Below, in pieces: positions 59,226 through 64,000 of a stretch of 64,000 nucleotides of DNA. A model generated the notes under the pieces. It was not told the origin of the DNA and did no database searches. It saw only the letters and a program-made list of their open reading frames with translations. Where the stretch lies: NCBI RefSeq assembly GCF_003337555.1, contig NZ_QPJK01000012.1, positions 62,001-126,000 on the forward strand, in the 5' to 3' direction. Made by a program: the position numbers and the translations under genes. The stretch comes from Pseudorhodoferax soli. Lineage in GTDB: Bacteria; Pseudomonadota; Gammaproteobacteria; Burkholderiales; Burkholderiaceae_C. How positions within the stretch are numbered: the first letter of the stretch is position 1; each line of letters begins with the position of its first letter.

Positions 59226-59305
59226 CCAGGCAGGCGCGCGCCGGGCCCGCCCCGGCGTGCGCCCTCCGGTGGTGCGGCGCATGGCCGCTCGCCGACAATG
59301 GCCGG

Positions 59306-60253
<948 letters not shown>

Positions 60254-60269
60254 GCGCGCAGGCGAGGGG

Positions 60270-60283
60270 CCCCGCTTGCGGGG
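60270..60283. other. Small hairpin between nodI and nodJ
   Basis: CCCCGC and GCGGGG flank a TT loop, 16 bp after the nodI stop. It lacks a T-run. It may slow or protect the transcript between the two exporter genes, which are 103 bp apart. Confidence 0.35.
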
Positions 60284-60356
60284 ATCGACCCAGCGAACGC
60301 GTCAAGGTCGCTGACCACATGACCATCACACAAGAACAACTGTACGGAGGCGACGC

Positions 60357-61157
60357 ATGAGCACCCAAAGCATCTGGCGCAGGCCACAGATCTCCGGCCG
60401 CTGGTGGCCCGTGTTCCTGCGCAACCTGCTGGTCTGGCGCAAGCTGGCCATCCCGAGCCTGGTGGGCAACATCGCCGAGCCGCTGATGTGGCTGGTGGCC
60501 TTCGGCTACGGCATGGGCGCGCTGGTCGGGCAGATCGACATCGGCGGCGAGAAGGTGCCCTACATCCTGTTCCTGGCGTCCGGCTCGATCTGCATGAGCG
60601 CGATGAACGCGGCCTCGTTCGAGGCGCTGTACTCGGCGTTCTCGCGCATGCATGTGCAAAAGACCTGGGAGGGCATCATGAACGCGCCCGTGAACCTGGA
60701 CAACCTGGTGCTGGCCGAGCTGCTCTGGGCCGCCTTCAAGTCGATCTTCACCGTCACGGCGATCCTGTGCGTGATGCTGGCGCTGGGCATCAGCCACAGC
60801 CCCAAGCTGCTCGTGGCCCTGCCCGTGCTGCTCGTCGCCGGCATCATGTTCAGCGCCATCGCGCTGATCTTCAACGCGCTGGCCAAGGGCTACGACTTCT
60901 TCACCTACTACTTCACGCTGGTGCTCACGCCCATGATGTTCCTGTCGGGCGTGTTCTTCCCGCGCGAGCAGCTGCCCGAGGCGGTGCGCATCGTCTCCGA
61001 CTGGCTGCCGCTGACCAACGCCGTGGAACTCGTGCGGCCGCTGTTCATGGACCGCTGGCCTGCACATGCGCTGCGCCATGGCCTGGTGGTCGTGGTCTAT
61101 GCGGTGGTGGCGTTCTGGGTGGCATTGGCGCTCACGCGCAGGCGCTTCAAGGCCTGA
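60357..61157 (+). CDS. nodJ: NodJ-like ABC-2 transporter permease
   Basis: A 266-residue inner-membrane permease with six helices. It begins RRPQISGRWWPVFLRNLLVW and has the family text NIAEPLMWLVAFGYGMGALV and TYYFTLVLTPMMFLSGVFFP. It pairs with the ATPase just upstream. An excellent GGAGG ribosome site sits before the ATG (TACGGAGGCGACGC). Confidence 0.9.
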   Translation: MSTQSIWRRPQISGRWWPVFLRNLLVWRKLAIPSLVGNIAEPLMWLVAFGYGMGALVGQIDIGGEKVPYILFLASGSICMSAMNAASFEALYSAFSRMHVQKTWEGIMNAPVNLDNLVLAELLWAAFKSIFTVTAILCVMLALGISHSPKLLVALPVLLVAGIMFSAIALIFNALAKGYDFFTYYFTLVLTPMMFLSGVFFPREQLPEAVRIVSDWLPLTNAVELVRPLFMDRWPAHALRHGLVVVVYAVVAFWVALALTRRRFKA

Positions 61158-61330: not shown

Positions 61331-63154
61331 ATGCGACACCAAGATCACCAACACGCCGCATGGCATGGCCTCGCAGGCCTGCTGCTGCTGGGCCTGGCGC
61401 AGCAGGCCTGCGCCCTCACCGCACAACAGGTCCACGCACGCTCAGCCGCCTCCGTCGTCGCGCTGGACATCCTCGACGCCGACGGCCAGCGCATCGTCGA
61501 ACGCAGCGCCACCCGCATCGGCGAAGGCCGCTTCGTCACGGCCTGCGAGAACCTGCACAGCGGCGCCGCGCTGCAGTTGCGCGCCGGCACGGATGCGGTG
61601 CCGGCACAACTGGGCGCACGCGACCGTGAACGCAACCTGTGCGAACTGCTGGCACCGCACGCGGGGCCGCCACTGCCGCTGCAGCCGGACCTGCCGGAGG
61701 CCGGCCAGCGCGTCTTCGCCATCTCCAATGCGCTGGGCCTGGGCGTGGGCATTTCCGAAGGCGTGGTCGCCGGCGTACGCCAGGACACCGGCGGCCCCCT
61801 GATCCAGTTCACCGCGCCGATCTCGCCGGGTTCGGAAGGCGGCGCGCTGCTGGACGAGCAGGGGCGGCTCATCGCCATCCTGGACTACCGCCGGCGCGAT
61901 GGCCAGAACGTCAATTTCGGCGCGCCCGCCGCCTGGCTCGCCGAACTCGCAGCGCGCGCGGCGGCCGATGCCGCCCAGTTGGCGCGGCTGGACGCAGGCC
62001 ATGCGCTGGCAGGCGCGGCGCAATGGCCCGCCCTGGCGACGCACGCGGCGCAGTGGCTCGCGGTGCAGCCCGGGCAGGCCGACGCCTTGCGCTTCGCGGC
62101 CGAGGCCGCGCGCGCACAGCAGCAGCCCGCCGAAGAATTGAACGCCTGGCGTGCGCTGCGGCGTGTGCAGCCGCATGACGCCGAGGCCGGGCTGGACCTG
62201 GTCCAGGCGCTGCTGCAACAGCAGCAACTCGCCGAGGCCACCGCGCTGGCACGCCAGCTCGTGGCGGAACATGCGGGAGAGGCGCGCGCCCACTGGCTGC
62301 TGGCGCGCGCGCTGCACGCCGATGGCGCGCTCGATGCTGCGGAGTCGTCCTACCGCCGCGCGCTCGCGGCCAACCCGTGGCTGGTGGCGGCCTACAACGG
62401 CCTGGCGGCGCTGGCGCAGGCACGCAACGACCACGGCACGGCCGTGGCGATCTTCGCCCGCCTGTCGGGCCTGTACCCGGAGGAGGCCTGGCCGCGCCAG
62501 CAGCTGATCGGTGCGCTGCTGCGGGCGCAGGACGTTGCACGGGCCCACGCCGAGCTGCAGAACCTGCCGCCAGCCCATGTCGACAGCGCCAGCAGCTGGT
62601 ACCTGCGCGGCCTCGTGGCCTCGCGCATGGGCCGCCCCGAGGCCGCCGTGCAGGCGCTGCGCACGAGCCTGGCCCGCGACGCGCAGCAGGACAGCGCCTG
62701 GATCCAGGCCGAGCTGGGCGCCGCCCTCACGGCGCTGGAGCGCTACCCCGAGGCCATCTCCGCGCTGCGCGAGGCCGTGCGCAGCGAGCCGGCCAGCACG
62801 CGCTGGCGCGTGCTGCTGGGCGACACACTGCGCGCCGGCGGCCTGGCCCCGCAGGCGCTGGCCATCGCGCAGCAGCTCGTCGCCGAGCAGGCCACCAGCG
62901 CCGCGCACTGGGGCCTGCTGGCCCGCACGCTGGTCACGCTGGACCGCGATGCCGAGGCCCTGCCTGCCCTCGAACGCGCGCTGCAGATCGACGCCAGCGA
63001 TGCCGCGCTGTGGGCGTCGCTGGTGCACGTGCAGCAGAACCTGGGCCAGCACAGGCTGGCCGCCGAGGCCCTGCGCCGCCTGCGCGAACTCGAGCCAGCA
63101 CGCGCCGAGCTGGTCTACCGCACCCTGGTGCTGCCCTACGGGGAGAACCGCTGA
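61331..63154 (+). CDS. Secreted trypsin-fold pseudoprotease with TPR repeats
   Basis: A 607-residue secreted protein with a signal peptide near residues 12-28 (LLLLGLAQQACA). Residues 30-190 align with the trypsin-like domain of the next gene, but the catalytic triad is gone: the His position is Glu73 (FVTACENLHSG), the Asp position is Asn102 (ERNLCELLAP), and the Ser position is Glu169 (SPGSEGGALL). The rest is a long array of TPR-type repeats (RAHWLLARALHADGALDAAE and similar). Its stop overlaps the next start by 1 bp. It is probably a binding scaffold. Confidence 0.85.
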   Translation: MRHQDHQHAAWHGLAGLLLLGLAQQACALTAQQVHARSAASVVALDILDADGQRIVERSATRIGEGRFVTACENLHSGAALQLRAGTDAVPAQLGARDRERNLCELLAPHAGPPLPLQPDLPEAGQRVFAISNALGLGVGISEGVVAGVRQDTGGPLIQFTAPISPGSEGGALLDEQGRLIAILDYRRRDGQNVNFGAPAAWLAELAARAAADAAQLARLDAGHALAGAAQWPALATHAAQWLAVQPGQADALRFAAEAARAQQQPAEELNAWRALRRVQPHDAEAGLDLVQALLQQQQLAEATALARQLVAEHAGEARAHWLLARALHADGALDAAESSYRRALAANPWLVAAYNGLAALAQARNDHGTAVAIFARLSGLYPEEAWPRQQLIGALLRAQDVARAHAELQNLPPAHVDSASSWYLRGLVASRMGRPEAAVQALRTSLARDAQQDSAWIQAELGAALTALERYPEAISALREAVRSEPASTRWRVLLGDTLRAGGLAPQALAIAQQLVAEQATSAAHWGLLARTLVTLDRDAEALPALERALQIDASDAALWASLVHVQQNLGQHRLAAEALRRLRELEPARAELVYRTLVLPYGENR

Positions 63155-64000
63155 TGCCGCGCCCGCAGATGCCCTGGGCGCCTGGCCGCGCGCTGGCGCT
63201 GGCCTTGCTCGCGGTGCCGCTGGCGCAGGCACAGGCACAGGACGATGGCGGCGCCGCCCGCGATGCGCAGCAGGTGTTCGCCCGCGTCAGTCCCTCGGTG
63301 GTGACGGTGCAGGCGCTCGACGCGCATGGGCAGGCCGACGGCCAGGGCAGCGGCGTGGTCGTCGCGCCCGGCCTGGTCGCGACCAACTGCCACGTGGTGC
63401 GCAGCGCGGCCACACTGGAGCTGACCGGCACCGCCGGCAAGCAGGCTGCGCAGTGGACGCACCAGCTCGCCGGCCTGGACCTGTGCCTGCTGGCCGCGCC
63501 GGGGCTGTCGGCGCCGCCGGTGGTGCTGCGGCCCAGCCAGGAGCTGGCGGTCGGTGAGCCGGTCTACGCGGTCGGCAACCCGCTGGGCTTCGGGCTGGCC
63601 GTCAGCAGCGGCCTGCTGTCCAGCCGGCAGGCGGGCCAACCCCACGCGCGCCTGGCGGCCACCGCACCGGTGTCGCCGGGCTCCAGCGGCGGCGGGCTGT
63701 TCGACCGCCAGGCGCGGCTGCTGGGCCTGACCACGGCCATCCTGGGCACCGGCCAGAGCCTGAACCTCGTGCTGCCGGCCGAAGCCGTGGCGGCCCTGCT
63801 GGCGCAGGCCGAACCGCGTGCGCCGGCCCAGGCCTTACCGCCGGCCGAGCCACGCTGGGCCGCGGTGGCGGTCGGGCTCTACGACCGCCAGGACTGGGCC
63901 GGCCTGCAAGCCCATGCACAGGCCTGGCTGCAGGCGCAGCCCCGGTCGGCGCCGGCGCTGGTCTACCTGGCGCGGGCGGCCGGCCAGCAGCAGGACCACG
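63154..64000 (+). CDS. Secreted trypsin-like serine protease, C-terminus beyond window
   Basis: At least 282 residues before the window ends. A signal peptide ends at LAQAQAQDDGG. The HtrA-like triad is complete: His80 in VATNCHVVRSA, Asp109 in AGLDLCLLAAP, and Ser178 in SPGSSGGGLFD. After the protease domain the text turns helical (LYDRQDWAGLQAHAQAWLQ), probably the first TPRs. It is a paralogue of the preceding gene and coupled to it through a TGATG overlap. Confidence 0.9.
   Translation, partial: MPRPQMPWAPGRALALALLAVPLAQAQAQDDGGAARDAQQVFARVSPSVVTVQALDAHGQADGQGSGVVVAPGLVATNCHVVRSAATLELTGTAGKQAAQWTHQLAGLDLCLLAAPGLSAPPVVLRPSQELAVGEPVYAVGNPLGFGLAVSSGLLSSRQAGQPHARLAATAPVSPGSSGGGLFDRQARLLGLTTAILGTGQSLNLVLPAEAVAALLAQAEPRAPAQALPPAEPRWAAVAVGLYDRQDWAGLQAHAQAWLQAQPRSAPALVYLARAAGQQQDH

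Follow-up and report, generated by a model that had tools for sequence, protein, structure and literature searches.

The question raised by this locus is why a bacterium should keep, directly in front of a gene for an apparently intact serine protease, a second gene for a sister protein in which each of the three catalytic residues has been replaced. The locus lies at the end of the stretch of 64,000 nucleotides analysed here ("the window", G000:C12:62001-126000), which comes from an 8.16 Mb genome of the genus Pseudorhodoferax (Comamonadaceae, Burkholderiales). A preliminary description, made from the sequence of the window, regarded the first gene (A) as a pseudoprotease obtained by directed conversion rather than by decay and the second one (B) as its catalytic counterpart. 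The features on which the argument depends are as follows.

61331..63154 (stop included), + strand: gene A, 607 aa, putative exported pseudoprotease carrying TPRs
61331..61414, + strand: putative signal peptide of A, residues 1-28, assigned by eye from the sequence
61511..61879, + strand: Trypsin_2/HtrA-fold domain of A, residues 61-183 (Pfam match)
61547..61549, + strand: Glu73 of A at the catalytic His position (alignment, verified by script)
61634..61636, + strand: Asn102 of A at the catalytic Asp position (alignment, verified by script)
61835..61837, + strand: Glu169 of A at the catalytic Ser position, in SPGSEGG (alignment, verified by script)
62024..63130, + strand: TPR superhelix of A, about residues 232-600 (Pfam TPR families; helix pairs in the AF2 model)
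63140..63145, + strand: GGGGAG in the last codons of A, possible ribosome-binding site of B (sequence)
63152..63156, + strand: TGATG stop/start overlap of A and B, one base common to both genes (sequence)
63154..64000, + strand: gene B, part inside the window, putative exported HtrA-fold serine protease with TPRs
63391..63393, + strand: His80 of B (alignment, verified by script)
63478..63480, + strand: Asp109 of B (alignment, verified by script)
63685..63687, + strand: Ser178 of B (alignment, verified by script)

Full-length B comprises 778 aa and ends at G000:C12:127490, so its first 282 residues are inside the window. Both proteins begin alike, i.e., with an apparent signal peptide (recognised by eye in each case) followed by a Trypsin_2 domain and then by TPRs, which in A were found by Pfam and in B past the window end, on the full-length protein (P0003).

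Fold and Domain Composition of A and B

The kinship of the two proteins in the trypsin-like domain, claimed in the preliminary description along with the one-base overlap and the TPRs, was borne out by BLASTP, where A and the in-window part of B are 36% identical along 243 residues (E 2e-28). Each also exceeds the cut-off of the Pfam profile Trypsin_2 (PF13365, 27.6 bits), A with 57.6 bits and B with 90.9 bits for the in-window part and 89.8 bits at full length; hence, A belongs by its profile to the S1C/Trypsin_2 chymotrypsin-like fold. When A was aligned to S1C proteins of known structure, as the preliminary description had proposed, the replacements fell on the triad positions: in a phmmer search against solved structures, Glu169 falls on the Ser of the GNSGG motif in Deg1 and in a DegQ, and Glu73 and Asn102 are matched in RsgI9 by a His and an Asp. 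A fold search with full-length A listed 50 matches, all of them TPR proteins or complexes by title; therefore, the protease-like domain was modelled alone.

RsgI9 is part of an anti-sigma factor. Its S1C-NTF2 structure from Clostridium thermocellum (PDB 7sjy) has the S1C fold and aligns with residues 15-181 of the 190-residue domain of A, with Thr at the Ser position as read from this alignment; its title names no TPR, whereas A has TPRs. Unlike the S1C proteases DegS, DegP, DegQ, and HtrA1, A is devoid of the triad; moreover, no PDZ domain was found in A or full-length B among the Pfam matches at E 0.001, the TPRs being in its place.

Distribution and Co-Inheritance of the Pair

Searches with A as the query covered the family (299, then 399 genomes), the genus (6), the genus of G162 (8), and the order (399), and those with an alignment of nine A proteins covered the class (369 genomes) and the families of G664 (74), G688 (10), and G519 (5); the sets overlap, and the larger groups were sampled. 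Overall, 12 A loci were found in 11 genomes, including the window, G175 (Pseudorhodoferax aquiterrae, with a full-length homologue 70% identical to window A), G253 (Leaf267), G162, and G360 from the same family. Those outside the family are G664, G1207, and G1204 (family f10), G688 and G716, the latter twice (f50), and G519 (f33). The presence of A is patchy (3 of the 6 genus genomes, 5 of the 399 family genomes), so the A-B pair is not essential to the group. Within the class sample, searched at E values up to 1e-45, only G809 and G937 matched besides the window genome; they were ruled out as carriers of A since the three loci fetched read H-D-S (in L112 the Ser is preceded by a gap of three residues). 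No tblastn match to A was found in 72,556 plasmid records.

B follows A at 11 of the 12 A loci. In all 11 tandem pairs A lies 5′ of B, with an overlap of 1 or 4 bases if B starts at the overlapping start codon (GTG in G664 and G360), and G- or GA-rich equivalents of GGGGAG precede B in most relatives, the one in G688 being weak. Orthologs of A (E ≤1.4e-122) and B (E ≤1.4e-162) occur in the same 5 of the 399 family genomes and neither alone in that sample, two draws of n = 400 made for the A and B searches being taken as one set because their visible genome labels agree. The next matches are single-copy relatives, at best 8.3e-36 for A and 9.7e-43 for B.

In a tree of 68 rows from which the triad columns had been removed, all A sequences lie on one side of a branch (100/99), and all B sequences on one side of another (100/98). 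This is the second of two trees, the first having been made before G1207, G1204, and the f23 sequences were retrieved; both omit four partial rows (the second Leaf267 piece, the partial B of G716:C62, one L091 fragment, and L098). The full-length A and B trees agree in 6 of 6 splits, one of them at only 63-66% bootstrap, and the A and B distances correlate with r 0.979, a value reached in 0 of 20,000 Mantel permutations; this comparison comprised 9 of the 11 pairs, with Leaf267 and G716:C62 (B cut by the contig end) omitted. Judged from these data, A and B sit and are passed on as one overlapping unit.

The surroundings are less uniform. In a crude comparison of all frames of at least 110 aa (BLASTP, 1e-15), the protease-family frames alone recur across all loci compared; one ATPase frame upstream of A also clusters with one in G519, and the remaining sharing outside the A-B region is among two or three loci. 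Just upstream of A (59290-61157) lie genes for the ATPase and permease of an ABC transporter, NodI/NodJ-like in appearance. These transporter frames are common to P. aquiterrae and also occur near a triple array in G105 (see below), on the strand opposite to the array. Downstream of B (L006:9851-12690), sequence motifs suggest a heavy-metal P-type ATPase, with CASC occurring twice, and after it a frame for a MerR-like regulator. Another observation concerns the end of A, where the proteins have in common a tail, Y(R/K)...P(Y/F), that follows the TPRs (window 63100-63154 and relatives). Since the tail codons hold the G-rich sequence resembling a ribosome-binding site for B, this conservation may be partly at the RNA level.

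Triad States in A and B

No His, Asp, or Ser is kept at the triad positions in any of the 12 A loci, and so the homologues with an intact triad that would have spoken against a conversion did not turn up. The Ser position is occupied by Glu in 11 of 12 (the Leaf267 Glu comes from the second frame piece, the corresponding column of the alignment and tree rows reading R because the first piece is out of frame) and by Ala once, and the Asp position by Asn in 11 of 12 and by Gly once. The His position varies among E, D, A, N, and T, with Glu or Asp in 8 of 12. The exact E/N/E combination, which the preliminary description had suggested looking for in relatives together with the pairing, is limited to the window, G175, and G162; D/N/E is found in Leaf267, G716:C62, G688, and G519, N/N/E in G360, A/N/E in G664 and G1204, D/G/E in G716:C145, and T/N/A in G1207. 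These tallies stand without the weaker matches L003-L005 from the window genome and L048-L052 from the genus of G162.

The sister protein presents the opposite picture: all 10 B copies whose protease domain is complete have the triad H/D/S, the eleventh (G716:C62) running into the contig end with His alone visible. Hence, B is probably an active protease, as read from its intact triad. Retention of the fold-keeping glycines in A, another point of the preliminary description, holds for Gly167, Gly170, and Gly171 in 9 of 9 aligned A proteins; Gly167 we take to be the oxyanion glycine of chymotrypsin-type position 193.

Thus, as far as the aligned sequences tell, the HtrA (S1C) fold of A has been preserved, whereas none of the homologues found retains any of the three catalytic residues. 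The loss with mostly the same replacements in 12 homologous loci is, by this comparison, not a matter of chance.

Selection versus Decay

The dN/dS ratios (Nei-Gojobori) between the window and P. aquiterrae are 0.30 for A, 0.25 for the A domain, and 0.47 for B; for A of G716:C62 against that of G688 the ratio is 0.16, and for B of the window against that of Leaf267 it is 0.38. In the two comparisons of intact full-length genes, these ratios indicate purifying selection on A. Together with the Glu in 11 of 12 loci, the invariant glycines, and the intact B, the values of 0.30 and 0.16 support the directed conversion that had been proposed.

At the same time, decay of A happens locally while the clade as a whole is maintained. 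In Leaf267, A (L047:6001-7816) is broken by frameshifts into three frame pieces, with dN/dS against the window of 0.36, 0.23, and 0.78 (the third), and the overlapping B is open; the frameshifts may be real decay or an assembly error. The A fragment of G1204 (L125:4563-5417) meets a stop soon after the protease-like domain, and no B was found near it within the 12 kb fetched. Decay was rejected for the clade as a whole but accepted for Leaf267 and G1204.

Proposed Function of A and Alternative Explanations

The reading favoured here, with rather more confidence than doubt, is that A represents a maintained, translationally coupled pseudoprotease, a regulatory partner of the TPR-serine protease B. 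Both proteins would be exported to the periplasm, where A would assemble with B via the related protease domains, the TPR superhelices, or both. Less surely, A might as a non-catalytic subunit set the activity of B by contact, by analogy with MamO and MamE (see below), and might present substrates through its TPR superhelix; the preliminary description had suggested a regulatory, presenting, or inhibitory partner, which is a plausible role. Since translation reaches A before B and the B start codon overlaps the A stop codon, B should seldom be produced without A. Against the favoured reading speak the broken A of Leaf267 beside its open B, the truncated A of G1204, the patchy occurrence of the pair, and the variable His position, which together with T/N/A in G1207 means that no one pocket chemistry is common to all A loci.

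That A is made first also renders inhibition or chaperoning a serious rival, albeit one to which only a minor share of the probability is given. The dead domain would dock on B and silence the protease until a signal or a substrate arrives; the order of synthesis and the coupling of the B start to the A stop would then make sense. The fixed order with overlap in 11 of 11 pairs is in line with it, as is the fact that none of the 399 family genomes searched has a B ortholog but no A. However, the broken A beside an open B in Leaf267 suggests that B without intact A is tolerated there, and no inhibitory element was recognised. Activation or presentation is considered somewhat likelier than inhibition.

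A bolder version of partnership, offered tentatively, assumes that the active site of A has been rewritten to a carboxylate pocket, with Glu replacing the nucleophile by the intact oxyanion glycine, Asn replacing Asp, and usually Glu or Asp replacing His. The Glu would mimic an acyl or product carboxylate and, being built in, would lock A in an active-like state; A could then serve as an allosteric template or ligand sensor by which the co-translated B is switched.

Alternatively, and in our opinion improbably, A might be an independent binder of a ligand or cation, whose acid/Asn/Glu pocket accommodates a metal or a basic peptide, B being only loosely related in function. The prevalence of Glu and Asn at the Ser and Asp positions and of an acid at the His position agrees with this possibility; moreover, MamO is reported to bind metal via a different site on the same fold (PMC4794232). 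Still, the acid at the His position is absent in 4 of the 12 loci and G1207 lacks both acids, and the strict pairing with B favours a joint function.

For A as a decaying duplicate without function, the Leaf267 frameshifts and the G1204 truncation could be cited; it is made highly improbable by the eight other loci with open frames of 606-626 aa (31-71% identity to window A), by the low dN/dS in the two intact comparisons, and by the recurrent Glu and the co-inheritance with B. Least credible of all is that A still cleaves proteins by way of a catalytic centre that has moved or is of another type. In its favour, the 9 aligned A proteins all have C72 and C104, and 8 of them have S132 and S168. 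However, no His is common to at least 7 of the 9 within the first 229 residues, so no replacement triad is visible there, on which ground relocation was rejected. The two Cys likewise flank the triad of B and of the single-copy relatives, a disulfide being their more likely role.

Parallel Losses of Triad Residues in Tandem Arrays

The maintained pairing of A with B can be set beside further tandem arrays within this superfamily. Besides the A and B rows, the tree of 68 holds 46 more. These comprise 39 single-copy or unclassified domains, all H/D/S, three second copies from family f23, also H/D/S, and the leading copy from each of four tandem arrays in G105 and f23, three of them degenerate. 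In G105 (L035:6369-10792), three HtrA-fold domains follow one another on one strand, the first reading G/N/G, a loss separate from that in A, and the next two H/D/S; the C-terminal part of these proteins differs, and the three domains group together apart from A (97/91). The f23 pairs (G423, L132:5090-7384; G550, L133:3949-6182; G645, L134:5203-7218) have first copies reading H/N/S, H/D/N, and H/D/S, respectively, and every second copy reads H/D/S. In the tree, the first copies cluster together (100/100), on a long stem and at a distance from A.

Three lineages of the superfamily in the order (the A clade, G105, and f23) have thus lost triad residues in the first tandem gene, and the f23 pairs are perhaps intermediate stages of this loss. 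Among the rows examined, which were chosen by likeness to A and not at random, triad loss is confined to tandem arrays and the orphan G1204 fragment. As a part of the tentative carboxylate-pocket proposal, the recurrent loss in the first gene would point to a general route from a duplicated protease to a protease with its regulator.

Known Systems and Significance

The nearest precedent for A and B is MamO/MamE of magnetotactic bacteria, where the dead HtrA copy reportedly activates MamE-dependent proteolysis (PMC4794232), so a pseudoprotease with a sister protease is an already known kind of system. Magnetotactic pseudoproteases of the HtrA/trypsin-2 type are reported in the same paper to have arisen three times; MamO is described there as having Thr in the triad, a non-glycine residue at position 193, and a surface di-histidine metal site (PMC4794232).

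The two systems are alike in belonging to the HtrA/trypsin-2 superfamily and in combining a dead copy with a sister protease whose triad is intact, the activity of B being predicted from that triad. Compared with MamO so described, A has lost all three residues (mostly to E/N/E or D/N/E), with Glu for Ser. In contrast to the non-glycine of MamO at 193, Gly167 of A, at the presumably equivalent position, is invariant (9 of 9), and against the di-histidine site stands the lack in A of a His common to at least 7 of 9 proteins, MamO itself being outside the alignment. That MamO is missing among the 50 VIA rows listed in the fold search carries no weight. Also unlike MamO, A carries TPRs instead of PDZ, and its gene overlaps the partner gene. 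In Clostridioides difficile, the pseudoproteases CspC and CspA likewise act with an active sister protease, CspB; these proteins differ from A in their subtilisin-like fold, their role in spore germination, and the loss of two catalytic residues (PMC6636752). No paper on the A-B pair was recognised by title among the matches listed in the literature search.

Few bacterial pseudoproteases are known to act with a sister protease, MamO and Csp being the examples found in the literature here. The A-B pair is compact and comes with an internal control (B) and with natural replicates, i.e., the 11 pairs, the G105 array, and the f23 pairs, in which the first copy has lost one triad residue or none. 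It offers a way to test how a duplicated protease may turn into a dedicated regulator and what effect a Glu at the catalytic Ser position may have.
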